Source of the DNA: a virus
Virus record (IMG/VR): IMGVR_UViG_3300020187_000150
Span: 1-29,437 of that record
Direction: 5' to 3' (one strand)
DNA length: 29,437 bases
Shown here piece after piece: positions 736 to 25,199 of the stretch (the stretch's first letter is position 1; each line of letters opens with the position of its first letter). Under the pieces are notes generated by a model that was given only the letters and a program-made list of their open reading frames with translations, had not been told where the DNA came from and ran no database searches. The position numbers were made by a program, and so were the translations under genes.

Positions 736-902
736 ACTCAAAACACCTCAAAGAAGTTGGGATGTCCTACATCAAACATTTAACCCACGCTTGGGTCGTC
801 GGATTCTCTCTACTGATACACGGCGTATTTCCCTTTATTCTAACCACATTTGCCCGCGACCGAATCTGTACCCACCCCCTCAAAGATGAACAAAATCAAT
901 AA
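732..902 (+). CDS. Small membrane protein, 56 aa
   Basis: This ORF starts at an ATG that overlaps the Smr-gene stop (ATGA), which suggests translational coupling. It contains the pattern HLTHAWVVGFSLLIHGVFPF, one hydrophobic segment at about residues 20-44 flanked by basic residues, and a polar tail rich in charge. I recall similar small phage proteins with a HL..H...G..LLIHG..P core (possibly the DUF6356 family; not verified). The stop TAA at 900-902 lies inside the left arm of the stem-loop promoter at 897-942. The role is unknown; an inner-membrane location is inferred from the hydrophobic segment. Confidence 0.7.
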   Translation: MNSKHLKEVGMSYIKHLTHAWVVGFSLLIHGVFPFILTTFARDRICTHPLKDEQNQ

Positions 903-942
903 CTTACCAGTGGTTGTCCCATTAACCAATTCGAGAGATAAT
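897..942 (+). promoter_or_regulatory. Stem-loop sigma70-type promoter cassette, copy 1
   Basis: Left arm CAATAAC (897-903), loop TTACCA (904-909), right arm GTGGTTG (910-916), with one mismatch and one G-T pair. The last TTG of the arm starts the -35 box TTGTCC (914-919). A 17-nt spacer leads to the -10 box GATAAT (937-942). It is followed by the shared leader and SD-like AAGGAAAGGG in front of the ATG at 974. Confidence 0.85.
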
Positions 943-973
943 ACTCTTGTAAATAAGGAAAGGGAAACGAAAC

Positions 974-1225
974 ATGATCGATTTTATCTCAATTCACGAA
1001 GGTCGTTTAGAATTGTATTCTGGTGAAGAATTAGTTTTTGCTGGTCGCGACCCACAAACTCTTGCAGATGTTGCTGTTCGTCGTGGTGGTATGGATTTTC
1101 AAGTTATGAGTTCGTCGACCTTTATCGAAGCTTCTTGTGGTTGTGAAGAATCTGCTCTTGAAGCTGGTTTCCGTTCCTCCAAAGAAGTTGCTGATCTTTG
1201 GGACAGCGTTTGTGACCTAGTTTAG
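974..1225 (+). CDS. Hypothetical accessory protein, 83 aa
   Basis: The ATG is preceded by a strong purine-rich site (AAGGAAAGGG) directly downstream of stem-loop promoter copy 1, so this is likely an early-transcribed accessory gene. The protein is small and acidic, with a beta-rich N-terminal part (FISIHEGRLELYSGEELVFAG) and a helical C-terminal part, and two close cysteines (SCGC). No recognisable motif, signal or membrane segment is present. It is the only gene between two promoter cassettes, as expected of a swappable single-gene module. Confidence 0.72.
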   Translation: MIDFISIHEGRLELYSGEELVFAGRDPQTLADVAVRRGGMDFQVMSSSTFIEASCGCEESALEAGFRSSKEVADLWDSVCDLV

Positions 1226-1234
1226 TAATAAAAT

Positions 1235-1280
1235 CAACAAGTTACCAGTGGTTGTTTTAATTACAGATTCGAGAGATAAT
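1235..1280 (+). promoter_or_regulatory. Stem-loop sigma70-type promoter cassette, copy 2
   Basis: CAACAAG (1235-1241), loop TTACCA, GTGGTTG (1248-1254); this stem is the imperfect version with two mismatches. The -35 box is TTGTTT (1252-1257), the spacer is 17 nt, and the -10 box is GATAAT (1275-1280). The leader AAATAAGGAAAAGGAAGCG precedes the ATG at 1312. Confidence 0.84.
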
Positions 1281-1311
1281 ACTCTTGTAAATAAGGAAAA
1301 GGAAGCGAAAC

Positions 1312-1707
1312 ATGACTAACGTAATCAAAGTTTACCAGTGGCATTTAAATGAACAAGACCGCGCAGCTCTCGAAGCTGGTGGCTGGGGCGCGAATGAGAC
1401 TACTATAGCGTATGCTGATAAAGGCATGGATCGGTTCGACGCTGCGGCTTGGTTTCATAAGTTTTCTCACGTCGCAAACGTTGCCACTGGCACCCAGTTT
1501 GATGAACAATACCAGTCAGATTATTCTGCCCTCGAAGAAAGCTTTGAGATCATGAATCATTGGAACAATCCTGAGCTCGTCGAGCGGTTGGGTAAATGCG
1601 CCTCTATGAGTGTAGGCGATATTGTTGAATTCAAGGGTCGATTCTTCGTAGTTGCCGGTATGGGGTTTGAGGAAATTGCAATAACTCAACAAGGTATGGC
1701 TAGTTGA
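1312..1707 (+). CDS. Conserved phage hypothetical protein, 131 aa
   Basis: The ATG has a strong SD region from promoter copy 2. The protein starts KVYQWHLNEQDRAALEAGGW and ends with a compact motif, SVGDIVEFKGRFFVVAGMGFEEI (residues ~100-122), that looks like a small beta-barrel. I recall proteins of this layout (a short N-terminal strand, 'F.IMN.WN', then SVGDIVE.....V...GF..) as widespread in phages and plasmids, without an assigned function. No signal peptide or membrane segment is present. The stop TGA (1705-1707) is embedded in the -35 box of promoter copy 3. Confidence 0.78.
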   Translation: MTNVIKVYQWHLNEQDRAALEAGGWGANETTIAYADKGMDRFDAAAWFHKFSHVANVATGTQFDEQYQSDYSALEESFEIMNHWNNPELVERLGKCASMSVGDIVEFKGRFFVVAGMGFEEIAITQQGMAS

Positions 1708-1732
1708 AACAAGAGGTAGAATGTACTAGAAT
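1687..1732 (+). promoter_or_regulatory. Stem-loop sigma70-type promoter cassette, copy 3 (divergent)
   Basis: CAACAAG (1687-1693), loop GTATGG, CTAGTTG (1700-1706), with one mismatch in the 7-bp stem. The -35 box is TTGAAA (1704-1709), the spacer is 17 nt (1710-1726), and the -10 box is TAGAAT (1727-1732). The element lies across the end of the upstream gene. Its loop and leader differ from the main group, but the geometry is identical. Confidence 0.65.
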
Positions 1733-1781
1733 AGTCTCATAAGCATTGAGTCTTATACACACAAACACAAAGGAGCGTAAA

Positions 1782-2153
1782 ATGTTCTATAATGTAATAA
1801 AAGTAACAGTACTCGCGTCATTCATGTATATGATGTTTTCCATGGTGCAAATCATGGAACGAGTCAACACAAAGCTCGATAACAGAGCACAAGTCCCCAC
1901 CGTACCTATCGACAGACCCGTTGAGCGGATTCAGCTAACTCCTGAGTACGATTTCCGTCCAGTGCCTCTGCTGTCGGAAGACCTCGCGAAACCAGAGACT
2001 GCAGAATACATAGAAGAAGTGCTGCACGATTTTGGTAATGGTATGTCTCTTTACAAGCTAAGTAGCCCTCAACCAGCCAACGCGGAGAATCAGATAGAAT
2101 TTACTGATCGAACAACTGGTCTTCGGTATGTTGTAATTGGAGGCGAGAAATGA
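1782..2153 (+). CDS. Membrane-anchored hypothetical protein, 123 aa
   Basis: I chose the ATG at 1782 because AAGGAGCG lies 6-13 nt upstream; a TTG at 1746 would be possible but lacks such a site. A hydrophobic stretch at residues ~4-22 (VIKVTVLASFMYMMFSMVQ) predicts a signal anchor. It is followed by a Pro- and Glu-rich segment and a short beta-rich C-terminus (ENQIEFTDRTTGLRYVVIGG). The bulk is probably periplasmic. It is the first gene of a likely transcript from promoter copy 3 through the exported proteins at 2150 and 2555. The stop overlaps the next ATG. The function is unknown. Confidence 0.75.
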   Translation: MFYNVIKVTVLASFMYMMFSMVQIMERVNTKLDNRAQVPTVPIDRPVERIQLTPEYDFRPVPLLSEDLAKPETAEYIEEVLHDFGNGMSLYKLSSPQPANAENQIEFTDRTTGLRYVVIGGEK

Positions 2154-2452
2154 TTTATACTAAAAGATTCACTCAATTGATTGTTGCCGTGTTTTTTCTC
2201 GCGATGTCTTTCGACGCGTTCTCTGACTCGAAAGCTAAGACCTTCGGACCAAATTGCACCTATGAAACTACGCAGATAATGAAAAATGGCGTTATTGTAG
2301 AGACAATCAAGGTCAAGAAATGTAAAGAAGAAACACAAATGGGTAAACAGAAATTTGACCCAAAAAACAATGGTAAACATGAGATGATCGCAGAGACCTA
2401 CAAGGTTGGTTTATACTCGGTATTCATCTACGCTATGACGAAAATGGATTAA
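2150..2452 (+). CDS. Predicted secreted small protein, 100 aa
   Basis: A classical signal peptide is visible: basic N-terminus (MIYTKR), hydrophobic core LIVAVFFLAMSF, and a cleavage-like AFS at residues 23-25. The mature part has two cysteines (GPNC..., VKKC...) that could form a periplasmic disulfide, and many lysines. It starts by ATGA overlap with the preceding membrane-anchored gene and is followed closely by a membrane micro-ORF and a lipoprotein. All four would act in the envelope. I do not recognise the family. Confidence 0.75.
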   Translation: MIYTKRFTQLIVAVFFLAMSFDAFSDSKAKTFGPNCTYETTQIMKNGVIVETIKVKKCKEETQMGKQKFDPKNNGKHEMIAETYKVGLYSVFIYAMTKMD

Positions 2453-2457
2453 GTATT

Positions 2458-2577
2458 ATGAACTTATTTGTTGGAATTGTTATTGGTATTTTGATTTGTT
2501 GGTATGAGCCGTCTATCGGCATTAAAGTGATGGAAATTATTAAGGAGATTATGAATGTTATCGCTTCAAAGATTTAA
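2458..2577 (+). CDS. Micro membrane protein, 39 aa
   Basis: This short ORF (ATG at 2458) encodes a hydrophobic N-terminal half (NLFVGIVIGILICWY) and an amphipathic tail (IKVMEIIKEIMNVIASKI). It sits five bases after the previous stop and overlaps the lipoprotein start at 2555 by 23 nt. A clear SD is not visible, so it may be translated by coupling. A similar gene (short, 'GV/IVIGI' segment) exists at 4133. It is probably real given phage packing and the coherent membrane profile, but its length alone gives little support. Confidence 0.5.
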   Translation: MNLFVGIVIGILICWYEPSIGIKVMEIIKEIMNVIASKI

Positions 2578-3151: not shown

Positions 3152-3153
3152 TC

Positions 3154-3870: not shown

Positions 3871-3899
3871 GCACACAAAAACACACTTAGGAGTTTATT

Positions 3900-4121: not shown

Positions 4122-4132
4122 GAAGAGGAACT

Positions 4133-4893: not shown

Positions 4894-4902
4894 GTCGCTA
4901 AC

Positions 4903-5091: not shown

Positions 5092-5133
5092 TAGATAATT
5101 AACAAATAATGAAATTGAAAGGCAGAAGCTTTA

Positions 5134-6933: not shown

Positions 6934-6936
6934 TAA

Positions 6937-7920: not shown

Positions 7921-7958
7921 CAATAATTCTTCCTTCCTCCGAGGGGTCGAGAGACACA

Positions 7959-7966: not shown

Positions 7967-7996
7967 AGTCTTGTACGTTATTATCGAGACTTTGAC

Positions 7997-16405: not shown

Positions 16406-17225
16406 AGTTTTTCACATTGTAGGTAACGGCGACAACGCTATTCTTTTCAAACGAGCACCCAGAGAAGGTAAGGTGTTGATCTGTAACATGCCTCCGTTTG
16501 AGATCGAGAATGTGTTTGCTTCTTGCATGGTCGATTTCAAAATGATGCATGCTCTCACAGAAGGTTCATTGCGGCTCGATCAGTACGATTGGATTCTCGG
16601 CACCCGCCCACAAATCTGGATGCAAGAGCAACCAGGTTTCTATCTAAAGTATGCCAAGAATGTACGGGAAATGTATCCACATGTTCCTGAATATGCAGGT
16701 GGCGCAACAAACTTTAATTGTGGTATGATGGCTGTGCACTATGCGGCGGCTCGACAAGGCGCTACAGAAATCCACCTGTATGGGTTTGACTCTTTGTTTG
16801 ATTTTAATATGCGAAGCGTTACTGATTTGTATCTAATGGCCGATCGAGATAATAATAATAATTATCGGTTGATTGAGAACTGGCGACCTGTCTGGAAAAA
16901 CCTATTTGAAGAATTTCCTAACACTGAATTCCATCTACACCACACTCATGATGGATTTAAAATTCCGACGTCAGGAAACGTAACAATTGAGGTCTACGAG
17001 AAACGCCAACCCAAGGCTCCAAAAGAGCCAAGGAAAGAAATTAAATTGGCAATGTCTCGCCTCAACAATTTCCAAGATGGTGTCTCGAATGATGTGATTG
17101 ATGGCATTCTAGACGAACCTTCCACTCCACCCGTTGAAACTCCTGAAGTTCAATTGCCTCAGGTTCCACTCAACAGAAATCAACGCAGACATCTAGAGAA
17201 GCTCGAGAGGGCTAAGAAGAAATAA
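16395..17225 (+). CDS. Sialyltransferase-like (GT29/DUF115-like) conserved phage protein, 276 aa
   Basis: The N-terminus HIVGNGDNAILF is a GN-type nucleotide-binding loop as in sialyltransferase-like and DUF115-like proteins. Further conserved blocks are VDFKMMHALTEGSL, DWILGTRPQIWM, TNFNCGMMAVHYAA, LYGFDSLFDFNMRS and FHLHHTH. Marine T4-type phages carry this family, often labelled glycosyltransferase family 29; the label is recalled, not checked. The C-terminus is a Pro/Glu-rich linker followed by NRNQRRHLEKLERAKKK, a basic tail that could tether the enzyme to a capsid or nucleic acid. It closes the glycan block. Confidence 0.68.
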   Translation: MTNKVFHIVGNGDNAILFKRAPREGKVLICNMPPFEIENVFASCMVDFKMMHALTEGSLRLDQYDWILGTRPQIWMQEQPGFYLKYAKNVREMYPHVPEYAGGATNFNCGMMAVHYAAARQGATEIHLYGFDSLFDFNMRSVTDLYLMADRDNNNNYRLIENWRPVWKNLFEEFPNTEFHLHHTHDGFKIPTSGNVTIEVYEKRQPKAPKEPRKEIKLAMSRLNNFQDGVSNDVIDGILDEPSTPPVETPEVQLPQVPLNRNQRRHLEKLERAKKK

Positions 17226-17239
17226 ATCCACTTACTAAT

Positions 17240-17285
17240 CAACAGGTTGCGCCTTGTTGATAAATTGCTCAAGATATAGTATAGT
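17240..17285 (+). promoter_or_regulatory. Stem-loop sigma70-type promoter cassette, copy 4
   Basis: CAACAGG (17240-17246), loop TTGCGC, CTTGTTG (17253-17259), seven pairs including one G-T. The -35 box is TTGATA (17257-17262), the spacer is 17 nt, and the -10 box is TATAGT (17280-17285). It lies in the gap after the glycan block and drives the nuclease gene at 17313. Confidence 0.8.
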
Positions 17286-17312
17286 ATTGTAAATTGAAAT
17301 AGAGTGATAAAG

Positions 17313-18005
17313 ATGCAAGCAGCAAACTTCGAACACACCCCAATCGACCTTGGCTATGAAGACCTTGGTTGTATCACAGAGTCTACTGGTCGAAGATACC
17401 AGACACCGAAGGGTAAAGCATACCCGTCAATAACTACTGTGCTCAGCGTCTTGTCCAAAGATTCTATTGCTAAGTGGCGCGCCAAGGTTGGCGACGCAGA
17501 AGCTGACAAGATATCGTATCGCGCTTCTACTCGAGGCAGTCTTGTTCATGAATGTATTGAAGAGTACATCAACAACGAAGATTGGTCTTTGCTGCAAGCT
17601 AAGTATACCCCCGATATCATCCAGTCACTAATCTCTGTAAGGAGTATCTTAAATGAAAGAATCGGAAAGGTTTATGGCCAAGAATTACCGCTTTATTCAG
17701 ACCACCTTGGCATTGCTGGCCGTGTTGACTGTGTTGCCCAATTCGACGGTAAACCCGCCATCATCGACTTCAAAACAAGTAAACGCCCCAAGCCAAGAAA
17801 ATTTGTCAAGAGCTACTTCCAGCAAGAAGCTGGTTACGCGATCATGTGGGAAGAACGCACCGGTATGCCAATTACCCAACTCGTTACCATAATTGCGGTG
17901 GATAATGAAGACCCGCAGGTGTTCATAGAACATCGAGACGACTGGGCTGAAGAACTCCTCAAGACAATAGAACTCTATAAAAATCAACCAGTTACGCTTT
18001 GTTGA
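17313..18005 (+). CDS. PD-(D/E)XK exonuclease, RecB/MGME1-like, 230 aa
   Basis: The RecB-family nuclease core is clear: RGSLVHE with H79, GIAGRVDCVAQ with D139, AIIDFKTSK with D152 and K154, and the downstream QEAGY (Q171...Y175, the QxxxY helix). The N-terminal YPSITTVLSVLS followed by a Lys-rich helix is typical of the mitochondrial-genome-maintenance-exonuclease-1-like phage group. It probably digests single-strand ends in recombination, replication or host DNA breakdown. ATG 17313 is chosen over GTG 17304; the SD is poor. The stop TGA (18003-18005) lies inside the -35 box of promoter copy 5. Confidence 0.88.
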   Translation: MQAANFEHTPIDLGYEDLGCITESTGRRYQTPKGKAYPSITTVLSVLSKDSIAKWRAKVGDAEADKISYRASTRGSLVHECIEEYINNEDWSLLQAKYTPDIIQSLISVRSILNERIGKVYGQELPLYSDHLGIAGRVDCVAQFDGKPAIIDFKTSKRPKPRKFVKSYFQQEAGYAIMWEERTGMPITQLVTIIAVDNEDPQVFIEHRDDWAEELLKTIELYKNQPVTLC

Positions 18006-18030
18006 CATTTAACCTTCATTGCGCGATAAT
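17985..18030 (+). promoter_or_regulatory. Stem-loop sigma70-type promoter cassette, copy 5 (consensus -35)
   Basis: CAACCAG (17985-17991), loop TTACGC, TTTGTTG (17998-18004), one mismatch and one G-T. The -35 box is the perfect TTGACA (18002-18007), the spacer is 17 nt, and the -10 box is GATAAT (18025-18030). The left arm and loop are coding sequence for the end of the nuclease gene. Confidence 0.85.
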
Positions 18031-18059
18031 ACTCGTCCATTGAAAAGAAGGTTGTAAAA

Positions 18060-18272
18060 ATGTTTAGAAAAACCCCGTTAACTGAACGAATTTCACGCTT
18101 TTTAGAAAATTCACCTGAAGCCTCAAAAATTCCGCTTCACCCTGATGATTTTAATATTTTAAAAAACGCCGGTTGGTTAAATGAAAACCCGCCTGCTGAT
18201 GCAGTTAAAATTTTAAAGGGTTTACCGGTTACGCGGTTGGGTGATAACCCTCCTGGCCTACCCGATTTCTAA
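18060..18272 (+). CDS. Hypothetical accessory protein, 70 aa
   Basis: AAAGAAGGTTG precedes the ATG, just after promoter copy 5. The protein has a helical N-terminal half (TPLTERISRFLENSPEASKI) and a Pro-rich C-terminus (GDNPPGLPDF). Lys/Asn codons lean on AAA and AAT (a run of aaaattttaaaa-like bases), giving a more AT-rich look than the neighbours, which fits a recently acquired module. No family is recognised. Confidence 0.68.
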   Translation: MFRKTPLTERISRFLENSPEASKIPLHPDDFNILKNAGWLNENPPADAVKILKGLPVTRLGDNPPGLPDF

Positions 18273-18286
18273 AACTCTATAAAATT

Positions 18287-18332
18287 CAACGGCTTACGGG
18301 CCGTTGTCTTATTTATGTTTTTAAGAGATAAT
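18287..18332 (+). promoter_or_regulatory. Stem-loop sigma70-type promoter cassette, copy 6 (GC stem)
   Basis: CAACGGC (18287-18293), loop TTACGG, GCCGTTG (18300-18306), a perfect 7-bp stem whose inner pairs differ from the other copies on both arms. The -35 box is TTGTCT (18304-18309), the spacer is 17 nt, and the -10 box is GATAAT (18327-18332). The standard leader AAATAAGGAAAAGGAAGTG follows. Confidence 0.88.
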
Positions 18333-18361
18333 ACTCTTGTAAATAAGGAAAAGGAAGTGAA

Positions 18362-18628
18362 ATGGCAGCAATAGAATACAGAAAGTTTGAAGCAGCTGAT
18401 CTTGGTGACATCTTAGGATGGAAATCTGCTGCGGGGTACCTCGAAGGTAAGATCACTCGGATCGACCGAATGAAGAACACTGCCTGTAAAAAGACTCTCA
18501 GCGATTGGGTCATGGTTGAAGTCCTTCCTTACTTCGCGCGGTTTGAAGGTGAGACTGCTTACCTGAATGCAAATTTCCTGCTTGATCAAGCCAAGCCTCG
18601 CATAATGAAAAAAGAAGAGGTCGCGTGA
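18362..18628 (+). CDS. Hypothetical accessory protein, 88 aa
   Basis: The ATG follows the conserved purine-rich leader of promoter copy 6. The protein starts AAIEYRKFEAADLGDILGW and has a charged, Lys/Arg-rich C-terminal half. No recognised domain, signal or membrane span. The stop TGA overlaps the next ATG (TGATG at 18626-18630). Confidence 0.68.
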   Translation: MAAIEYRKFEAADLGDILGWKSAAGYLEGKITRIDRMKNTACKKTLSDWVMVEVLPYFARFEGETAYLNANFLLDQAKPRIMKKEEVA

Positions 18629-18846
18629 TGACGAACAAAGTTGATAACCTTGGGCGATTACAAGAAATCATTGAAGAATTGAAGATGCTAGGAGGAGAAG
18701 CGAAATATATCATGCGTGAATGTTTTCCGGACTCGTTTGAGACAGCAGATTCGTATGATGTGTTCAACTTCTCTGGCAGCATGAACCCTTACGATACTAC
18801 CTTCGAATCTTGTGTTCAACAAGCTGCTGATGAAGAGATGTTCTAA
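18628..18846 (+). CDS. Hypothetical acidic protein, 72 aa
   Basis: I take ATG 18628 rather than GTG 18625, with AAGAAGAGG upstream. The N-terminal half is a helix (RLQEIIEELKMLGGEAKYIMRE), and the rest is acidic and aromatic (SYDVFNFSGSMNPYDTTFES). Coupled to the 18362 gene. No family is recognised. Confidence 0.66.
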   Translation: MTNKVDNLGRLQEIIEELKMLGGEAKYIMRECFPDSFETADSYDVFNFSGSMNPYDTTFESCVQQAADEEMF

Positions 18847-18860
18847 AAGCACAATAATAT

Positions 18861-18906
18861 CAACAACTTACCAGTTGTTGTCTCGTTAATGTTTTTAAGA
18901 GATAAT
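18861..18906 (+). promoter_or_regulatory. Stem-loop sigma70-type promoter cassette, copy 7
   Basis: CAACAAC (18861-18867), loop TTACCA, GTTGTTG (18874-18880), a perfect stem. The -35 box is TTGTCT (18878-18883), the spacer is 17 nt, identical to that of copy 8, and the -10 box is GATAAT (18901-18906). Confidence 0.9.
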
Positions 18907-18936
18907 ACTTTTGTAAATAAGGAAAGGAAGTGAAAT

Positions 18937-19101
18937 ATGGTCCCATGGTATGCAAAAGGCGAAGTCGGTGAATACTTGATTCACGCGCTTGATTTGATTC
19001 AAGACGGGCAGATCAACGATGCTATCAGTGCTTGTCTCAGTGTTGGTATGAGCGACGAAGAAATTGATGAGTTTTTATCTGACGAAGGAGTTACACAATG
19101 A
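18937..19101 (+). CDS. Hypothetical small acidic protein, 54 aa
   Basis: The ATG is preceded by AAGGAAAGGAAG from promoter copy 7. The product (VPWYAKGEVGEYLIHALDLIQDG...SDEEIDEFLSDE) is acidic and probably all-helical, resembling short helix-turn-helix-like dimerisation stretches, but without a firm motif. The stop overlaps the next ATG (ATGA at 19098). Confidence 0.65.
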   Translation: MVPWYAKGEVGEYLIHALDLIQDGQINDAISACLSVGMSDEEIDEFLSDEGVTQ

Positions 19102-19328
19102 GAGATTTGAAAGGTAAGATTTGCGAAATCGATTATGTCGGTTCGAATGTGAGAGTTCTCGGCAAGATCACCGAATCGCGTTACAGTTCTTATGCTGGTG
19201 TAACGCACCACTTTGAGTTCATGACTCCGTTTCGATGGGAACAGAACGGATGCGAGATTGTAAGGGAAGTTGGTGAGGGTTCTTGCACCGATGATAACAT
19301 GGTCGTAAAGGTATGGGAGACAGTGTAA
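19098..19328 (+). CDS. Hypothetical beta-rich protein, 76 aa
   Basis: ATGA overlap at 19098 couples it to the upstream gene; GAAGGAG is the SD. The sequence is beta-rich from its start (GKICEIDYVGSNVRVLGKITESRYSS) with aromatic residues and an acidic end. It could form a small beta-barrel. The stop TAA overlaps the next ATG (TAATG). Confidence 0.65.
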   Translation: MRDLKGKICEIDYVGSNVRVLGKITESRYSSYAGVTHHFEFMTPFRWEQNGCEIVREVGEGSCTDDNMVVKVWETV

Positions 19329-19492
19329 TGGGTAATGAAATGTTTATTTTTCTGGACAAGTTGCGTGAAAGTGGTAAAATCAATATGTTTGGTGCACCCA
19401 AACTTCTGCAAGAAACCTTCGGTTTGAGTAAGAAAGAATCCATACAAGTGTTCCAAGCTTGGGCAGAAGCGTTCAAAGCACCCCCCGAATAG
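19328..19492 (+). CDS. Hypothetical small helical protein, 54 aa
   Basis: Starts within TAATG at 19326. The product (MFIFLDKLRESGKINMFGAPKLLQETFGLSKKES...VFQAWAEAF) has the layout of a small helical protein with a 'L...FGL...E....F..W...F' pattern. The related gene at 20186 shares the spacing (FKLTRSESYSVFHNWKASF), so the two are probably divergent paralogues. The role is unknown; DNA binding is only a guess. Confidence 0.66.
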   Translation: MGNEMFIFLDKLRESGKINMFGAPKLLQETFGLSKKESIQVFQAWAEAFKAPPE

Positions 19493-19515
19493 GAGAAGTA
19501 AGTTGCGTGTGATAT

Positions 19516-19561
19516 CAACAACTTACCAGCTGTTGTCTCGTTAATGTTTTTAAGAGATAAT
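19516..19561 (+). promoter_or_regulatory. Stem-loop sigma70-type promoter cassette, copy 8
   Basis: CAACAAC (19516-19522), loop TTACCA, GCTGTTG (19529-19535), one mismatch. The -35 box is TTGTCT (19533-19538), the spacer is 17 nt, identical to that of copy 7, and the -10 box is GATAAT (19556-19561). The conserved leader leads to the ATG at 19591. Confidence 0.9.
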
Positions 19562-19590
19562 ACTCTTGTAAATAAGGAAAAGGAAGCGAA

Positions 19591-20106
19591 ATGTCTACTA
19601 GAGCAACTTACCAATTTGTTTCATCTCTTGGTGATACCGATGCAGCAACTAAAACCTTCTACCTTCATTATGATGGTTATCCCGAAGGCGCTGCGAAGTA
19701 TTTTTCCTCTGCGTTGAAATGTCAAGCAAACGACACCCCATGTGGTTACCAGTTGCAGGACGATTTTATTCTTAATCACAATCCGTCTGAAATTGAAGAT
19801 CACGAGGAACACGGTGATACTGAATTTCGTTATACTTTCAATCGTGACACCCTCAATATCCTAGTCGAGAAAAGAGCTGGTTCATTGCCTCGGGACTTTG
19901 ACAACTACTTTGACGGCGCTCTCATGGATTTCATTGAACAAGAGACTGACACTTACTACGAGTCAACAGACTATCGCGACCTGATGATGAGTATGGTAGA
20001 TGATGGTGTTCTCTCTGCCGAGGACGCGCTCCGAGCGTGCCTTGTATCAATGTCACAAGACGATGTCCGTGACACCATGATTCTCAATGAGCTAAAAGCT
20101 TTCTAA
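19591..20106 (+). CDS. Conserved phage protein of unknown function, 171 aa
   Basis: A strong SD (AAGGAAAAGGAAG) follows promoter copy 8. The sequence starts STRATYQFVSSL and has FYLHYDGYPEGAAKYF (~22-37), a pattern I recall from widespread phage and bacterial small proteins, possibly nucleotide-related, though no function is assigned. The middle is acidic (EIEDHEEHGDTE), and the C-terminus is helical (SAEDALRACLVSMSQDDVRD). No membrane part. Confidence 0.78.
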   Translation: MSTRATYQFVSSLGDTDAATKTFYLHYDGYPEGAAKYFSSALKCQANDTPCGYQLQDDFILNHNPSEIEDHEEHGDTEFRYTFNRDTLNILVEKRAGSLPRDFDNYFDGALMDFIEQETDTYYESTDYRDLMMSMVDDGVLSAEDALRACLVSMSQDDVRDTMILNELKAF

Positions 20107-20109
20107 TTC

Positions 20110-20155
20110 CAATGAGTTACCACTGGTTGTCGGGTTAGCTGATTTGAACGATAAT
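20110..20155 (+). promoter_or_regulatory. Stem-loop sigma70-type promoter cassette, copy 9
   Basis: CAATGAG (20110-20116), loop TTACCA, CTGGTTG (20123-20129), one mismatch and one G-T. The -35 box is TTGTCG (20127-20132), the spacer is 17 nt, and the -10 box is GATAAT (20150-20155). The leader (AAAGAAAAGGAAACGC) precedes the ATG at 20186. Confidence 0.86.
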
Positions 20156-20185
20156 ACTCTAGTAATTAAAGAAAAGGAAACGCAA

Positions 20186-20386
20186 ATGCGAATGATAGAA
20201 GAATGGGAAAAACACATGATGTACGAGGCGTTGGTGACAATGCAAGAGTACGGCGAAAGTAAGTTTGAATGTATTAATATGTTACGAGAAGAGTTTAAAC
20301 TCACTCGTAGTGAATCATACAGCGTCTTTCATAACTGGAAAGCAAGCTTTCGAGTCACATCATCAAGATATTCAATCTGCGCGTAA
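20186..20386 (+). CDS. Hypothetical small helical protein, 66 aa
   Basis: I start at 20186, after AAAGGAAACGC of promoter copy 9; an upstream TTG would sit inside the promoter. The protein is helical with a Glu/Met-rich first helix and a second half FKLTRSESYSVFHNWKASF that parallels the 19328 product (FGLSKKESIQVFQAWAEAF). A paralogous pair in the same accessory region supports duplication of single-gene cassettes. Confidence 0.68.
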   Translation: MRMIEEWEKHMMYEALVTMQEYGESKFECINMLREEFKLTRSESYSVFHNWKASFRVTSSRYSICA

Positions 20387-20396
20387 GGAGAGTTAA

Positions 20397-20594
20397 ATGG
20401 ATAATTTTGCGATCACCAAGTTTTTAAGAGTTATGCTCAACCGATTCGGCGACGAGCTGAGCACCACCGAAGTTATCGACGCCACTCTGCGCAGGTTCAC
20501 CCTATTTCCGAAAGATCGGTTTTATGGAGATGCCTTAGATCAAGAGATGGTTCGCGATATCGCTCTTGCTGATAGGCTTCGGAAAGCCTCGTGA
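20397..20594 (+). CDS. Hypothetical protein, 65 aa
   Basis: TAAGGAGAG lies upstream of the ATG. The protein (DNFAITKFLRVMLNRFGDELSTTEVIDATLRRF...) is probably a compact three-helix bundle with acid and Arg residues. The stop TGA overlaps a GTG start of the next small ORF (GTGA). No family is recognised. Confidence 0.66.
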   Translation: MDNFAITKFLRVMLNRFGDELSTTEVIDATLRRFTLFPKDRFYGDALDQEMVRDIALADRLRKAS

Positions 20595-20698
20595 ACGACT
20601 ACAGATCAGAACTTTTTATGAAGTTTTGGATGGGATTCTTGTGGGGTGTAGCCACCGCGGATATCCTTTTGTTGGCGATATTTTTGATCTTTAGGTAG
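20591..20698 (+). CDS. Micro membrane protein, 35 aa, GTG start
   Basis: The GTG at 20591 overlaps the preceding TGA (GTGA), and no other start fits. The product has a polar head (NDYRSEL) and a hydrophobic segment FWMGFLWGVATADILLLAIFLIF. The next gene has AGGAGAG after its stop. Membrane profile and coupling make it plausible despite its length. Confidence 0.5.
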   Translation: MNDYRSELFMKFWMGFLWGVATADILLLAIFLIFR

Positions 20699-20707
20699 GA
20701 GAGTTTA

Positions 20708-21049
20708 ATGGGAAAGACGAAGAAAAAAGCTGGCGCATATCAGTTCCCGAATCCAGAGAGCGAGGTAGGAGAACTCATCAAGCGCAGAAGGTTACAAATG
20801 CTTGTTCACAGCTGTCTCTACTACGCTCTCGACGAGAATATTTGGGCTGACCACCAGTTCGACGCTGCAGCGAAAGAGCTCGCAGAGCTCCTCCAAGCCT
20901 CTCCAAACGCCTATTCAGACCAGTATGACAAGTATTTTGAAGGGTGGGACGGAAGCTCGGGGTATCACTTACCTCACCGAGACCCATGGGTGATGGCTTC
21001 GGCGCGTAACCTATTGATTTCACACGAGAAAAACAAAGAAACCTATTAA
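20708..21049 (+). CDS. Small protein resembling the Ia domain of NAD+-dependent DNA ligase, 113 aa
   Basis: The segment EVGELIKRRRLQMLVHSCLYYALDENIWADHQFDAAAKELAELL (residues ~20-63) parallels the N-terminal Ia domain of LigA (helix, 'YY..D.P...D..YD.L..EL..LE'), which binds NMN of NAD+. The C-terminal part (FEGWDGSSGYHLP) is what I recall from phage relatives. The adenylation domain is absent, so it cannot be a full ligase. A role in NAD+ or nucleotide handling is possible. AGGAGAG precedes the ATG. Confidence 0.6.
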   Translation: MGKTKKKAGAYQFPNPESEVGELIKRRRLQMLVHSCLYYALDENIWADHQFDAAAKELAELLQASPNAYSDQYDKYFEGWDGSSGYHLPHRDPWVMASARNLLISHEKNKETY

Positions 21050-21060
21050 TCTTTACTAAT

Positions 21061-21106
21061 CAACAACTTACCAACGGTTGCCTGATTAGTGTATATGAGC
21101 GATAAT
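21061..21106 (+). promoter_or_regulatory. Stem-loop sigma70-type promoter cassette, copy 10
   Basis: CAACAAC (21061-21067), loop TTACCA, ACGGTTG (21074-21080), stem weakened to the outer 4 pairs plus isolated pairs. The -35 box is TTGCCT (21078-21083), the spacer is 17 nt, and the -10 box is GATAAT (21101-21106). The standard leader follows. Confidence 0.87.
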
Positions 21107-21136
21107 ACTCTTGTAAATAAGGAAAGGGAAGTGAAT

Positions 21137-21286
21137 ATGTACGGGAATGCAGTCGGTTCAATCTATAAGAAGCCAGAAGTTGTTGAAGAAGTGGTATTCT
21201 ACGAATCAGAATTAGAAACCTTCATTGGGTTTATCTTCTGTGTTGTGATCGGGTTTGGCACCATTTACCTCAGTCATTTTCTCTAA
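21137..21286 (+). CDS. Small membrane protein, 49 aa
   Basis: I take ATG 21137, just after the AAGGAAAGGGAAG leader. The N-terminal half is acidic (PEVVEEVVFYESELE), followed by one transmembrane segment, FIGFIFCVVIGFGTIYLSHF. A tail-anchored topology is predicted. No family recognised. Confidence 0.66.
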   Translation: MYGNAVGSIYKKPEVVEEVVFYESELETFIGFIFCVVIGFGTIYLSHFL

Positions 21287-21295
21287 GGATTTAAG

Positions 21296-21523
21296 ATGAC
21301 CTACGCGCCAATTGACGATGTTCTAAATGAATACCGAGAAAATGGATGTCCCAAGGAAGACGATAAATACTTCTTGAGATTGGCCAGACTGGGCTTCTCT
21401 GATGCCTTAGCGGCTTGTCTATTGGATGACGTCGAACAGGCTGTCTTAAATGGTGCGCAGGAGCGACAATGCCACAACGTAATTCAAATTCAGAAGGATC
21501 TAAACTGCTCCAACAATTACTAG
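21296..21523 (+). CDS. Hypothetical protein, 75 aa
   Basis: CTAAGGA is the SD. The protein (TYAPIDDVLNEYRENGCPKEDD...) is helical with four cysteines spread along it, and it has no CxxC pair. It overlaps the next gene by 55 nt in a different frame, a large overlap even for a phage. No family is recognised. Confidence 0.6.
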   Translation: MTYAPIDDVLNEYRENGCPKEDDKYFLRLARLGFSDALAACLLDDVEQAVLNGAQERQCHNVIQIQKDLNCSNNY

Positions 21524-21750
21524 AATTTAATTTTATGACTCTAATTGTTACGCCGTTCGACGACGGTAGCGGTAAAGAAGAAATTATTCTGGAGTTATAT
21601 AGAGAGCTAGACGACGATCCCATATATGGGTTGACGACTGGTCCATACAAAGACCAAGGGTTGTTAGAAGCAAGATATAGACAGCTGATGGAGCAATTAG
21701 AAAGGTATGTTACCATACAAACCATTAAGGCTACTACCCACGAACACTAA
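21469..21750 (+). CDS. Hypothetical protein, 93 aa
   Basis: CAGGAGCGACA directly before the ATG at 21469 is a strong SD and decides this start despite the 55-nt overlap with the upstream gene. An in-frame ATG at 21535 is weaker. The protein has a Ser/Gln-rich start, acidic middle (YRELDDDPIYG) and helical Arg/Gln-rich C-terminus (EARYRQLMEQLERYVTIQ). Confidence 0.65.
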   Translation: MPQRNSNSEGSKLLQQLLEFNFMTLIVTPFDDGSGKEEIILELYRELDDDPIYGLTTGPYKDQGLLEARYRQLMEQLERYVTIQTIKATTHEH

Positions 21751-21785
21751 CAAGAGCATATATAATAAGGGTAAAAGGAAGTAGA

Positions 21786-22226
21786 ATGTACGAATATCGA
21801 TGCATCATTAAGAGAGTAGTAGACGGAGATACCGTCGATGTGGACATCGACCTTGGTTTTCACGTTGTGCTCAAAAACCAAAGAGTAAGGCTGCGAGGAA
21901 TAGACACACCCGAGTCGCGTACTCGCGACAAAGTTGAAAAGAAATTTGGACTCGCTGCAAAGAAATATCTCGAGTTAATGCTCAGTCATGGTGACGCAAC
22001 GCTTGTGACGCACAAAGATGGAAAGGGTAAGTTTGGTAGAATCCTAGGCGACTTTATGGTCTATGATTCTAAAGCCGATGCCCGTCGTAGCGTCAACACT
22101 ATGATGGTCGAACAATACTTCGCCGTGCCGTATTTTGGTAACAGCAAAGAAGACATAGAAGTGATGCATCTATTAAACCGAGTGTTGTTAGCAGAACATT
22201 GGTTGGAAGGTATAGAAGTTAAATAA
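21786..22226 (+). CDS. Staphylococcal-nuclease-like (thermonuclease) enzyme, 146 aa
   Basis: The SNase fold signature is complete: VVDGDTVDVDID (D13-G-D15), RVRLRGIDTPESR with R37, D40, T41 and E43, and GKFGRILGDF with R85; these are the counterparts of the S. aureus Ca2+ ligands and R35/E43/R87. It cuts DNA or RNA with Ca2+. No signal peptide is present, so a cytoplasmic role in host DNA or RNA turnover is likely. AAAAGGAAG precedes the ATG; TATAAT (21761-21766) lies upstream but has no -35. The tRNA cluster begins five bases after it. Confidence 0.93.
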   Translation: MYEYRCIIKRVVDGDTVDVDIDLGFHVVLKNQRVRLRGIDTPESRTRDKVEKKFGLAAKKYLELMLSHGDATLVTHKDGKGKFGRILGDFMVYDSKADARRSVNTMMVEQYFAVPYFGNSKEDIEVMHLLNRVLLAEHWLEGIEVK

Positions 22227-22230
22227 TAAA

Positions 22231-22306
22231 TTGGGGCTGTAGCTCAGTTGGGAGAGCGGTTCCCTTGCACGGAACAGGTCGTAGGTTCGATCCCTATCAG
22301 CTCCAC
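22231..22306 (+). tRNA. tRNA-Ala (UGC)
   Basis: A complete cloverleaf: acceptor GGGGCTG pairs with CAGCTCC, anticodon stem GTTCC/GGAAC encloses loop CTTGCAC (anticodon TGC), and the T-loop is GTTCGATCC. The CCA end is encoded. It is the first of six tRNA genes in the cluster. Confidence 0.97.
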
Positions 22307-22325
22307 CACTTTATTAGGAACGGTA

Positions 22326-22454
22326 ATGAAAACTAAAGCAGTTGTGCGACATAACCCTGTAGCAAAACATGCACATAAGTTTAACAAAGCAGTAGTAATG
22401 CAGGACAAGAAGCGCGTGGCATCAAAACGAGCATGTAGAAAGAAAATATTATGA
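22326..22454 (+). CDS. Small basic conserved phage protein, 42 aa
   Basis: TTAGGAACGG lies upstream of ATG 22326. The product (KTKAVVRHNPVAKHAHKFNKA...) is strongly basic and His-rich, and the start resembles a small-protein family I recall from phages (possibly DUF7230; not verified). It probably binds nucleic acid or a protein by charge. Lies between tRNA-Ala and tRNA-Ser, and its stop overlaps the next micro ORF (ATGA). Confidence 0.7.
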   Translation: MKTKAVVRHNPVAKHAHKFNKAVVMQDKKRVASKRACRKKIL

Positions 22455-22558
22455 CATTCATATTACTATTTTGGATTGGCATCATTACGGCTTGCTGGAT
22501 CAGCGTAAAAATTCAAGATAGAGAAGATCGTCTCATAAACGAGAAAAATAAAAAATAG
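22451..22558 (+). CDS. Micro membrane protein, 35 aa
   Basis: ATGA overlap at 22451. The product has one hydrophobic segment TFILLFWIGIITACWIS and a charged tail (KIQDREDRLINEKNKK). The final G of its stop codon (22556-22558) is also the first base of the tRNA-Ser gene. Its reality is supported by the coupling and by several other micro membrane ORFs in the window. Confidence 0.5.
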   Translation: MTFILLFWIGIITACWISVKIQDREDRLINEKNKK

Positions 22559-22648
22559 GAAGATTGGCAGAGTGGTTGAATGCACTGGTCTTGAAAACCA
22601 GCATACCTTAATAGGGTATCGAAGGTTCGAATCCTTCATCTTCCGCCA
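22558..22648 (+). tRNA. tRNA-Ser (UGA)
   Basis: Acceptor GGAAGAT pairs with ATCTTCC, the anticodon stem ACTGG/CCAGC-type encloses loop CTTGAAA (anticodon TGA), a long variable arm (ATACCTT...AGGGTAT) is present, and the T-arm is GAAGGTTCGAATCCTTC. The CCA end is encoded. The 91-nt length is normal for serine tRNAs with a long variable arm. Confidence 0.96.
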
Positions 22649-22664
22649 TTTATAACGGAATCAA

Positions 22665-22877
22665 ATGAGCTGGAATTACAGAGTAGTAAAGAAAACCATA
22701 GAAGGCGTTACGTGGTACGGCATACATGAAGTCTATTATGACGAAAAGGGTAAACCTAACATGTGCACCCAAGACGCAATTGATTTGCAAGAAGAGTCGA
22801 TTGAAGATCTTGAATTTACTATCAATAAGACGAGAGAAGCTCTCAGTCACCCAGTACTTGATTACGAGGAGTTCTAA
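22665..22877 (+). CDS. Conserved phage hypothetical protein, 70 aa
   Basis: The sequence MSWNYRVVKKTIEGVTWYGIHEVYYDEKG is a pattern I recall from small proteins found widely in phages and bacteria, with a beta-strand start and helical acidic end (ALSHPVLDYEEF). No function is known. It sits between tRNA-Ser and tRNA-Tyr, as small genes often interrupt phage tRNA arrays. The SD is weak (AACGGAATC). Confidence 0.75.
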   Translation: MSWNYRVVKKTIEGVTWYGIHEVYYDEKGKPNMCTQDAIDLQEESIEDLEFTINKTREALSHPVLDYEEF

Positions 22878-22878
22878 C

Positions 22879-22962
22879 GGAGGGGTGGGTGAGTGGTTAA
22901 AACCGTCGGACTGTAAATCCGATCCGCGAGGTACGCTGGTTCGAATCCAGCCCCCTCCACCA
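22879..22962 (+). tRNA. tRNA-Tyr (GUA)
   Basis: Acceptor GGAGGGG pairs with CCCCTCC, anticodon stem TCGGA/TCCGA encloses CTGTAAA (anticodon GTA), and a variable arm and T-loop GGTTCGAATCC are present. The CCA end is encoded. The length is 84 nt. Confidence 0.96.
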
Positions 22963-22977
22963 ATTTTAGATTTTGTT

Positions 22978-23054
22978 GCAGCGGTAGTTCAGCTGGTTAG
23001 AATGCTGGCCTGTCACGCCAGAGGTCGCGAGTTCGAGTCTCGTCCGTTGCGCCA
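22978..23054 (+). tRNA. tRNA-Asp (GUC)
   Basis: Acceptor GCAGCGG pairs with CCGTTGC, anticodon stem CTGGC/GCCAG encloses CTGTCAC (anticodon GTC), and the T-loop is AGTTCGAGTCT. The CCA end is encoded. Confidence 0.97.
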
Positions 23055-23072
23055 GTTATATATAAAGATATT

Positions 23073-23148
23073 GCCGCTATAGCTCAGTTGGTAGAGCAAC
23101 TGATTTGTAATCAGTAGGTCCCGAGTTCGACTCTTGGTGGCGGCACCA
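23073..23148 (+). tRNA. tRNA-Thr (UGU)
   Basis: Acceptor GCCGCTA pairs with TGGCGGC (one G-T), anticodon stem ACTGA/TCAGT encloses TTTGTAA (anticodon TGT), and the T-loop is AGTTCGACTCT. The CCA end is encoded. A TATAAAGA box lies 14 bases upstream and may be chance. Confidence 0.97.
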
Positions 23149-23169
23149 ATTTATTATTGAGGAAGTATC

Positions 23170-23355
23170 ATGGCAAGGAAAGATAACGATATCGTCTACC
23201 TGATTCCAGAAGGACAAACTCGTGAGTCTCACGATTATCATTACACTGTTTCTAAAAACAAAAAGAAAGATAAGATGCGTCTGAAGAAATACAACCCAAA
23301 GACACAGAAGCATGAATGGTTCGTAGAGATTAAGAAACCAAGCCATTCCAAGTAA
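23170..23355 (+). CDS. bL33 ribosomal-protein-like protein, 61 aa
   Basis: The C-terminal two thirds align by eye with bacterial bL33: YHYTVSKNKKK corresponds to the bL33 FYTTTKNKR block, KMRLKKYNP to KLELKKFDP, and KHEWFVEIKK to the H..YKEAK end. It has no CxxC zinc pair, as in E. coli RpmG. It is slightly longer than host bL33 (about 50-55) because of the N-terminal insert EGQTRESHD. bL33 sits near the ribosomal E site. A phage copy could enter host ribosomes during infection. It lies inside the tRNA cluster, between tRNA-Thr and tRNA-Asn, next to other translation genes. ATTGAGGAAG is the SD. Confidence 0.8.
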   Translation: MARKDNDIVYLIPEGQTRESHDYHYTVSKNKKKDKMRLKKYNPKTQKHEWFVEIKKPSHSK

Positions 23356-23369
23356 GAGCAAAGTTAATC

Positions 23370-23543
23370 ATGGAATACAAAGAACTAGTAGAAATCGAAA
23401 CTCCTGAAGAAATGGTCGAAGAGCTACAAAGAGTATTTCCTAACTTACCCAACGTCTTACAATACCCGTCTACTGTCCTTTGGTATATTAAGCTGTACCG
23501 ATTCTATAAGAAGAGAAAGGAAACATACGGCGATTTCACTTAA
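23370..23543 (+). CDS. Hypothetical protein, 57 aa
   Basis: ATG at 23370 after AGAGCAAAG. The product has an acidic N-terminal half (LVEIETPEEMVEELQRVF) and a basic aromatic end (YIKLYRFYKKRKETYG). The frame fills the whole gap between the bL33-like gene and tRNA-Asn. No domain is recognised. Confidence 0.6.
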   Translation: MEYKELVEIETPEEMVEELQRVFPNLPNVLQYPSTVLWYIKLYRFYKKRKETYGDFT

Positions 23544-23545
23544 AT

Positions 23546-23621
23546 TCCCTGTTAGCTCAGTTGGTAGAGCGTGTGACTGTTAATCACAATGTCCTTGGTT
23601 CGAGCCCAAGACAGGGAGCCA
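23546..23621 (+). tRNA. tRNA-Asn (GUU)
   Basis: Acceptor TCCCTGT pairs with ACAGGGA, anticodon stem TGTGA/TCACA encloses CTGTTAA (anticodon GTT), and the T-loop is GGTTCGAGCC. The CCA end is encoded. Starts two bases after the previous stop. Last of the cluster. Confidence 0.97.
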
Positions 23622-23641
23622 TTCTTTTATGAGGTGTTGAA

Positions 23642-23890
23642 ATGACAGAAGAAAAGAAAATTCTTTTATTGACAGACATCATTGAACAAAGACTCCGCAA
23701 AGAAAAGGAACTTGAATTCTATCAAGAACAACTTGAAGAAATAAAAAGAAAGATGTGGTTTCTGCAGAAAGAATTAGATGTCACAAATACAATAATGGCG
23801 TTGATTGAGCAAGAAAAAATTGCTATAGTTGGATCTTCGAATAACGACAAAAATTTATTATTAGAGGAAATTGATAATGACATATCGTGA
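23642..23890 (+). CDS. Coiled-coil hypothetical protein, 82 aa
   Basis: ATGAGGTGTTGAA upstream contains GAGGTG as SD. Residues ~10-60 (IIEQRLRKEKELEFYQEQLEEIKRK...) are a strongly heptad-like Glu/Lys-rich coiled coil, followed by an acidic tail. Likely oligomeric or a protein-interaction module. The stop lies 14 nt inside the next gene. Confidence 0.68.
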   Translation: MTEEKKILLLTDIIEQRLRKEKELEFYQEQLEEIKRKMWFLQKELDVTNTIMALIEQEKIAIVGSSNNDKNLLLEEIDNDIS

Positions 23891-24062
23891 TATGTTTAAA
23901 GATGAAGTTTTAGATGATATAATTCTCCAAGACCTACTAGAGCAATCAGCGATGCTCGAACAAGACGGCACAGAACAAGACGCGGCGCTTGCGCGCGCGT
24001 TACATGTTGTGATTGCATTTTATTCAGTTCCAGGAACATACATGGAGGGTGCATATGACTAG
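23877..24062 (+). CDS. Hypothetical acidic protein, 61 aa
   Basis: AGAGGAAATTGATA upstream of ATG 23877 decides this start over the TTG at 23871. Acidic helical protein (DMFKDEVLDDIILQDLLEQSAMLEQDG). The stop overlaps the thyX start by eight bases, so the two are probably translated together. No family is recognised. Confidence 0.62.
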   Translation: MTYRDMFKDEVLDDIILQDLLEQSAMLEQDGTEQDAALARALHVVIAFYSVPGTYMEGAYD

Positions 24063-24738
24063 AGTAAGCCTAGTAGGTCTAACACAACCAAGCGCGGCGA
24101 CAGGATGTCACTCAGCAAATGAGCTGATTGCGTACGCTGCTAGGGTCTCCAACCCAGCAAACCAGAATAACACCAAGACCGCCAAGAAGCTACTCGGGTA
24201 TTTAATTAAAGAAGGCCATTGGTCTCCCTTCGAGATGGTTAGTGTTACGATGGAAATCGTAACCACTCGAGACATCTCTCGTCAGATTCTACGACATCGG
24301 TCATTCTCTTTCCAAGAATTCTCTCAGCGTTATGCGGTGAGTGAGAACTTCACGGTCAAACGAGAAGCTAGAAAACAACACGCAACAAACCGACAGTTGA
24401 GCATGCTTGATGAAGACGTAACCCGTCAAGCCAAGGCACAAGAAGTTTTCAACGAGCTACAAGCAGAGGTCGCTAGGGCAGCAAAGGACGGTTACGAGAT
24501 GGCGCTGAATATGGGTATTGCAAAGGAACAAGCTCGAGCGTTGCTACCTGAAGGTCTTACTGAAACTACATTGTACATGTCGGGCACTCTGCGCTCTTGG
24601 ATTCATTACTGTGAATTACGGATGGGTAATGGCACGCAGAAAGAACATATGGAAGTTGCTGAGATTGCTTGGGATATTCTTAGAACACACTTCCCAGATG
24701 TAATCGCTGCTTGTGAGGCATTAGGAGAAGATGAATGA
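24055..24738 (+). CDS. thyX: FAD-dependent thymidylate synthase (ThyX), 227 aa
   Basis: Makes dTMP from dUMP with methylene-tetrahydrofolate, FAD and NADPH, supplying DNA synthesis without forming dihydrofolate. The ThyX signature RHRx7SxR is exact: R80-H81-R82, S90 and R92 within RHRSFSFQEFSQR. ARALLPEGLTETTLYMSGTLRSW (~162-184) is the second conserved ThyX region. Start 24055 is chosen by GGAGGG nine to four bases upstream; an earlier ATG in frame would sit in the previous gene. Together with NrdAB it completes deoxynucleotide supply. The stop overlaps the next ATG. Confidence 0.97.
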   Translation: MTRVSLVGLTQPSAATGCHSANELIAYAARVSNPANQNNTKTAKKLLGYLIKEGHWSPFEMVSVTMEIVTTRDISRQILRHRSFSFQEFSQRYAVSENFTVKREARKQHATNRQLSMLDEDVTRQAKAQEVFNELQAEVARAAKDGYEMALNMGIAKEQARALLPEGLTETTLYMSGTLRSWIHYCELRMGNGTQKEHMEVAEIAWDILRTHFPDVIAACEALGEDE

Positions 24739-24926
24739 TCCAATACCCCGAAGTATATAATTGGAAGTTTTTCTATGGAGACTTAGGTTACAAACTCCTT
24801 TGCAAACAAAAGATGTATTGGGAAACATATAAATTTAAAGCCAGTGACATCAAGCTTTTAGATAAAGAAGCACCAAAGGAACTGAGACAAGAAATCGCGG
24901 ATAGTTTAAACGAGGAAATCAAATGA
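24735..24926 (+). CDS. Hypothetical protein, 63 aa
   Basis: ATGA overlap with thyX at 24735. The product starts QYPEVYNWKFFYGDLGYKL (aromatic, beta) and ends in a charged helix (EAPKELRQEIADSLNEEIK). The stop overlaps the next ATG in the same way. No family is recognised. Confidence 0.66.
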   Translation: MIQYPEVYNWKFFYGDLGYKLLCKQKMYWETYKFKASDIKLLDKEAPKELRQEIADSLNEEIK

Positions 24927-25159
24927 ATGGTAAAAAAGCAAAGCAGCTGAGAAGAAGTTGTCGTGGAAACGAAACTGTTACCAAAGAGCTCAAAAGAATG
25001 TACAACTCTTTGAATCACGTTGAGAAGGAAATTCTCAACTATCTAACTGATGGTGGTGTTAAGCCTGTGTCTTTCATGAAAGAAGAAGATATAGTAGAAT
25101 CAGTATCATTTCCAGCTAAATTTATAGATACGGGTGAGAAACCAGAAGAAAATCAATAG
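24923..25159 (+). CDS. Hypothetical basic protein, 78 aa
   Basis: ATGA overlap at 24923. The N-terminal half is basic (NGKKAKQLRRSCRGNETVTKELKRMYNSL), with a helix that could bind nucleic acid; the C-terminal half is acidic. The TAG stop lies inside the left arm of promoter copy 11 (25154-25160). Confidence 0.66.
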   Translation: MNGKKAKQLRRSCRGNETVTKELKRMYNSLNHVEKEILNYLTDGGVKPVSFMKEEDIVESVSFPAKFIDTGEKPEENQ

Positions 25160-25199
25160 GTTATAAGAGATTGTTCTGTTAGTGTTTATGAGAGATAAT
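25154..25199 (+). promoter_or_regulatory. Stem-loop sigma70-type promoter cassette, copy 11 (stem degraded)
   Basis: CAATAGG (25154-25160), loop TTATAA, GAGATTG (25167-25173): only the outer four pairs (CAAT/ATTG) remain. The -35 box is TTGTTC (25171-25176), the spacer is 17 nt, and the -10 box is GATAAT (25194-25199). The leader is not the standard one. Confidence 0.8.

Follow-up and report, generated by a model that had tools for sequence, protein, structure and literature searches.

The window analysed here is the whole of a 29,437-base virus record (IMG/VR IMGVR_UViG_3300020187_000150), and one promoter-like layout is repeated along it. At each of eleven named sites a 20-nt element of the form CAAY-N12-RTTG carries, in its final TTG, the opening of a -35 hexamer, which is followed by a 17-nt spacer and a -10 hexamer; the -10 reads GATAAT at nine sites, TATAGT at 17240 and TAGAAT at 1687. 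The original prediction for this DNA described these sites as exact stem-loops (7-nt arm, 6-nt loop, 7-nt arm) fused to sigma70 promoters at distances that never differ, heading small accessory genes that are exchanged as modules. Sequence and position support repeated sigma70-type promoters ahead of small accessory genes. The part conserved across relatives is a box of about 15 bp, AAATCAAYARSTTAC, immediately upstream of the sigma70-type -35 and -10, and the hairpin is not. We assign a probability of about 0.6 to the reading that these are T4-early-type promoters with a clade-specific upstream box read as duplex DNA, whose copies recombine.

The number of such arrays in the window is not approached in shuffled sequence. 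A mechanical scan requiring a TTG, a -10 with at least 5/6 matches and at least 5/7 stem pairs found eleven places on the plus strand and none on the minus strand, against a mean of 0.35 and a maximum of 1 in 40 dinucleotide shuffles. These eleven places are not the same as the named eleven: 3302 and 10664 are included, while 21061 and 25154, with four pairs each, are missed. At a threshold of four pairs, 16 places are found versus a shuffle mean of 0.90 (maximum 4). A 46-nt position matrix built from nine copies gave each left-out copy 17-57 bits, against a single place above 14 bits in every 3 Mb of simulated DNA; judged in this way, nine of the sites are a tight family of copies. The matrix scores of the outliers are low, 2.3 bits for 1687 and 7.2 bits for 17240. 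Site 17240 is divergent, yet it has a counterpart at position 547 of the related contig L003; 1687, which has no relative of that kind, is doubtful. The predicted coordinates and the fixed distances within the window hold at 11/11 sites. A generic sigma70 scan of 16,900-25,300 returned 20 matches versus 16.3 (sd 4.3) in shuffles; since this is no enrichment, the signal lies in the shared element and leader and not in the -35 and -10 alone.

Table 1. Promoter sites and the variable segment in the window (ORF, open reading frame)
Feature	Coordinates	Strand	Gene context and remarks
Box, -35 TTGTCC, -10 GATAAT	893..942	+	Heads ORF 974-1225
Box, -35 TTGTTT, -10 GATAAT	1231..1280	+	Heads ORF 1312-1707
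Doubtful site, -35 TTGAAA, -10 TAGAAT	1683..1732	+	Within the end of ORF 1312-1707; ATG of ORF 1782-2153 is 49 nt further on
Divergent copy: box, -35 TTGATA, -10 TATAGT, full 7-pair stem	17236..17285	+	Heads exonuclease ORF (start 17304 or 17313, end 18005); conserved in L003
Box, -35 TTGACA, -10 GATAAT	17981..18030	+	Heads ORF 18060-18272; exonuclease ORF ends within the site
Box, -35 TTGTCT, -10 GATAAT, full 7-pair stem	18283..18332	+	Heads ORF 18362-18628
Box, -35 TTGTCT, -10 GATAAT, full 7-pair stem	18857..18906	+	Heads ORF 18937-19101
Box, -35 TTGTCT, -10 GATAAT	19512..19561	+	Heads ORF 19591-20106 (MSTRATY family)
Element, -35 TTGTCG, -10 GATAAT	20106..20155	+	Heads ORF from 20180; A-rich part of box weak (ATTC), missed by the 16-nt box matrix
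Box, -35 TTGCCT, -10 GATAAT	21057..21106	+	Heads ORF from 21137
Box, -35 TTGTTC, -10 GATAAT	25150..25199	+	Heads ORF 25232-25786; preceding ORF stops within the box
Segment with three promoter-headed gene groups	18365..20149		Absent from L003; flanks join within the -10/leader

The upstream box in related phages

Proteins, tRNAs and gp23-bearing relatives place the window, on sequence grounds, with marine T4-like phages. The gp23 family is matched in G008, G016 and C48C1 and not in the window, a 29-kb fragment. By its exonuclease protein the nearest named genome is C48C1, annotated Kyanoviridae, at 57.7%. Megablast of window positions 1-25000 against the phage collection recovered only 23065-23155, a tRNA-Thr gene and its flanks, in eight records.

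The box recurs in these relatives with small shifts in its distance to the promoter. A scan of viral contigs in which the gap from element to -10 was left free between 15 and 25 nt gave six matches in three contigs, every one with a gap of 20 nt, and an iterated matrix reached 62 places, 47 of them distinct. When the 20-nt element was scored by itself, using a matrix trained on gap-20 sites, 55 places had a good -10: 48 at a gap of 20, five at 19 (these five lying outside the training set) and one each at 24 and 15, the last being 17240, whose -10 reads at 20 as well. Relatives have 16 or 17 nt between -35 and -10, a spacing that is 17 nt throughout the window. A third group of phages, which a protein search with a downstream gene family brought in, retains AAATCAAYRRSTTR and has its -35 (TTTACT or TTGACA) three bp nearer the box, at position 15 rather than 18. 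The predicted constancy of distances is thus a property of the window, and relatives depart from it both in the 19 or 20 nt to the -10 and in this class with a closer -35.

A 16-nt box matrix found 158 places above 12.5 bits, a cut low enough for chance matches (simulated DNA gives 43-69 per 3 Mb at thresholds of 13 and 12 bits), and 73 of these are followed by a promoter, a ribosome-binding site and a start codon. Among the 73, the -10 lies at a distance of 41 (48 places), 40 (9), 42 (3), 38 (8), 37 (1) or elsewhere (4); in the remaining 85 the best -35 is more widely scattered. Upstream of a MIDYIS-type gene family, found in a search seeded with proteins picked for lying behind such promoters, the box scored at least 14.6 bits in 10/10 distinct stretches, five of them outside the matrix, whereas 1/2000 simulated stretches exceeded 14 bits. 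For the MSTRATY family it is present in 7/59 distinct upstream stretches (five above the score limit, plus L178 and L218), and many of the stretches lacking it come from other phages; the box therefore follows the phage clade and not that gene. Genes for the small MSTRATY-type protein occur in 78 viral contigs (L150-L227), and most of them have upstream sequence of other kinds.

Within each long record the box with its -10 keeps to one strand (plus/minus counts: G016 10/0, G017 0/5, G018 0/6, G008 0/10, window 9/0, C48C1 0/0), and boxes with no -10 also exist. Four places in two phage records carry tandem boxes exactly 36 nt apart, with a promoter after the second only (G018 42110/42074, 40099/40063 and 12599/12563; G017 70721/70685). 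In L110 and L111 the element and -10 are present with no ORF behind them (L110 examined), and these sites are probably due to chance. No convincing site was found in C48C1, the nearest isolate: one weak antisense place lies in a long gene and scores 17.0 bits, more than anything in 2 Mb of simulated DNA; a single box there has no promoter. We judge both to be chance. One stringent 46-nt form, the only form scanned there, had 0 matches in a genome collection of 84,980 species, and on that form a host regulon was rejected.

Promoter-headed genes and probable cassette exchange

Across the 52 sites assembled from the window and its relatives, a start codon lies 24-34 nt past the -10 at 44, and at 11 the stop codon of the preceding ORF (CAATAA or CAATAG) falls within the box. 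Most promoter-headed ORFs have no family matches; the protein of 974-1222, for instance, has no match in the phage collection. In G008, 9/12 sites cluster at 70.4-77.5 kb. That genome has 19 copies of the T4 late octamer TATAAATA, 17 of them on the strand with most large ORFs, as a raw count with no chance control.

The clearest evidence for exchange comes from L003. This contig aligns to window 16694-18364 (93.5%) and then, without a break in L003, to 20150-22449 (90.4%); L003 1631-1667 belongs to both alignments, and window segment 18365-20149 is missing from the contig. Over the element and spacer L003 reads like the 18287 copy, and once the leader begins it reads like the 20110 copy. A cassette boundary at a synteny break, as had been predicted, is thus found inside the promoter and leader; it is a single event, in which loss from L003 and gain in the window are not distinguished. 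For a second phage, the G001 contig (the same as L100 and L101), blastn alignments to the window are confined to the promoters and reach 96% over 77 nt. Phages of this clade seem, from these alignments, to gain or lose genes through the repeats, and the predicted exchange of single-gene modules through shared flanks keeps the support of one clear junction and of the promoters shared with G001.

Promoters also resemble others of their own genome. Among 66 promoters, similarity was 0.582 within a genome, 0.521 between genomes for the same gene family and 0.497 for different genes; in 60/84 ortholog pairs both promoters were closer to those of their own genome, and in 56/84 when only the spacer and leader were compared. 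The 66 promoters were entered by hand from among the known sites and compared from ungapped anchors, with pairs between the window and L003 left out and at least one -10 (G016 21597) placed automatically at a doubtful position. This own-genome likeness, the L003 junction and the G001 matches confined to promoters could also come from a box with no regulatory role, being the conserved end of a promoter-leader unit whose copies recombination has spread and homogenised. We regard that explanation as quite unlikely, given that the box persists between genomes despite the divergence of their spacers and leaders, and that its letters stay constant while its distance to the -35 changes.

Several neighbouring genes in the window were recorded in passing. 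For the 113-aa ORF at 20708-21049, the only part of DNA ligase matched is the N-terminal NAD+-binding domain (PF22745, E 9.4e-27). Six tRNA genes lie among small ORFs at 22233-23621. ORFs 25232-25786 and 25823-26449 adjoin, and their starts look alike by eye; the former matches phrog_624, a DNA binding protein, and the latter has no Pfam match. A repetitive Gly/Ala-rich ORF occupies 26994-27863, and the ORF at 28836-29321 consists almost entirely of short GDVNGDV-like repeats.

Stem-loop or duplex box

The stem that gave the sites their first description is full, at seven pairs, at only three of the eleven (17240, 18287 and 18861), with four to six pairs at the remainder. Over the 52 sites (48 distinct elements, the doubtful 1687 included and 17985 counted once through its identical L003 copy), no inner stem pair covaries above shuffled expectation: pair 5-16 is formed in 10/48 versus 9.9, pair 6-15 in 26 versus 26.4 and pair 7-14 in 23 versus 19.7 (p 0.18). 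In a scan of all columns the top column pairs involve position 20 and track lineage, not pairing. Hand-picked alignment rows of the window's lineage (18 of 22 sites) have 76.5% paired cells versus 73.5% shuffled, with 53/500 shuffles equally high; those of a sister lineage (21 of 30 sites) have 57.8% versus 58.8%, with 449/500 equally high. The sister element ends in GTTT where the window has GTTG, so that no stem forms, and in phages whose -35 sits three bp nearer the box the 3' arm is likewise missing. On pairing counts and the sister lineages we reject the stem as a conserved unit. What looks like a stem is mostly the CAAY of the box facing the RTTG that begins the -35, a side effect of having both. 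Neither the exact stem-loop nor a stem fused to the -35 as a functional unit is supported by these comparisons, in which conservation is limited to the 5' box.

A hairpin acting as RNA, in the manner of a terminator or 3'-end signal, or as a protein-bound DNA cruciform, would still make sense of the three full stems and of 18287, which is terminator-like. We consider it very unlikely. Eight of the eleven sites lack the full stem, a U-tract is absent from most copies (sequences judged by eye), and RNA folding in the sister lineage is no better than in shuffles (mean z 0.05, 2/30 below -2). A terminator consensus scan of 16,900-25,300, covering 8/11 sites, flagged only 18287 on the plus strand, so that an intrinsic terminator, with a stem and then a U-tract at every copy, was not found.

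In the mechanism we infer, each site would be active as a promoter early in infection, with a host sigma70-type -35 and -10 and the box some 40-55 bp ahead of the expected start. In duplex form, the box would most likely be recognised by the C-terminal domain of the RNA polymerase alpha subunit (alpha-CTD), in the manner of an UP element, or by another factor, and this recognition would raise or time the transcription of small accessory genes. Its position is where an UP element would sit. A plain A-rich element has no need of fixed C and S positions, which points to an alpha-CTD with a sequence preference or to a separate factor. With box, promoter and ribosome-binding leader present in many copies per genome, homologous recombination between the copies may add, remove and homogenise gene cassettes.

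Alternatively, the same duplex sequence would be an operator at which a repressor of phage or host origin, or a switch protein, turns the gene set off at one stage or another. The conserved sequence does adjoin and partly overlap the -35, the same gene set lies under one element, and an inner ACC-N3-GGT dyad resembles paired half-sites; this dyad is not significant, however (76.5% paired versus 71.9%, 109/500 shuffles as high). With the box upstream of the -35 and not over the -35 and -10, the dyad weak and no candidate repressor found, an operator seems unlikely.

Several observations weigh against a box read as duplex DNA and copies that recombine. Pair 4-17 shows nominal enrichment in the window's lineage (13/19 Watson-Crick versus 9.8, p 0.047), and RNA folding beats shuffles there (mean z -1.47, 8/22 sites below -2, against 0/22 in each set of flanking controls). 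The letters CAA and TTA were part of the search patterns and of the training set, so their invariance is partly a matter of ascertainment. The distance from box to -10 ranges from 38 to 42 within G017, which suits rigid contact poorly. No reader of the box was found: among twelve candidate G008 ORFs, common to at least two box genomes and not in C48C1, none was an evident regulator when judged by eye, with no domain search made. The genome-wise grouping of promoters, finally, could reflect the copying of a resident promoter and not gene conversion.

A bolder form of the duplex reading is that a marine T4-like clade lacking detectable MotA and AsiA uses AAATCAAYARSTTAC with a putative phage reader to run an accessory regulon. 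The repeated unit would then serve as the main port through which the genome gains and loses new small genes. The C-terminal domain of MotA (MotCF, the only MotA model used) and AsiA had no match in seven records, mostly fragments, while the T4 positive control was matched. We advance this form tentatively and below even odds, because no reader protein was found.

Whichever factor would read the box, a misleading hairpin picture gives way to a DNA element that can be tested and that marks a regulon of T4-like phages not yet cultured. The box also provides a sequence handle with which to locate the accessory genes of these phages in metagenomes, and a case of promoter repeats that seem both to regulate and to recombine.

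Relation to known promoter repeats

The closest precedents are the promoter-early stem-loops (PeSLs) of T4-type phages, reportedly described by Arbiol in 2010 and Comeau in 2014, the latter in a paper whose title is said to name terminator activity of the PeSL stem-loop. A description of the box was not found in literature searched by the spelling of the box or by PeSL, the primary PeSL papers being beyond reach. The comparison with PeSLs below draws on papers that cite them.

T4 early promoters comprise UP, -35, TGn and -10 elements (PMC2988021), and early promoters of T4-like phages have GTTTAC as their -35, are A-rich from -40 to -44 and often stand before novel ORFs (PMC1524935). The window promoters share with them a sigma70-type -35 and -10 separated within the 16-18 nt range, an A-rich upstream region and novel ORFs behind; the -35 forms TTTACT and GGTTTACT of G016 and G017 resemble the GTTTAC of the latter paper. 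They differ in an added conserved CAAYARSTTAC upstream of the -35 and, in the window, in a TTGTCT-like -35. In T4 middle promoters a MotA box (TGCTTtA) centred at -30 replaces the -35 (PMC2988021). A phage-specific box next to a host -10 is common to both systems; here, unlike there, the -35 is present and the box lies upstream of it, and MotCF and AsiA went unmatched as described above.

Repeats of a comparable kind are known outside the T4-type phages. In one arm of the genome of the haloarchaeal virus HGTV-1, most ORFs are preceded by a TATA-like region and an inverted repeat, a motif that the authors of that work likened to PeSLs (PMC3950731); it differs in being archaeal, and we liken it to ours by description, not by sequence. 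PMC4177764 and PMC3486835 mention recombination that takes place at regulatory signals, and also an early promoter in front of an ORFan of RB43.

PeSLs are dense where gene shuffling is intense (PMC4503421). As in PeSLs, repeated promoters, here putatively of the early type, stand ahead of what are mostly ORFans in T4-type genomes (gp23 in the relatives) and offer shared flanks for shuffling. Unlike in PeSLs, the stem-loop is not conserved and mostly lacks a terminator-like U-tract, the conserved piece being a linear upstream box. As PeSLs are characterised in those papers, the window promoters part from them at the stem-loop and are a stem-less or stem-optional variant.

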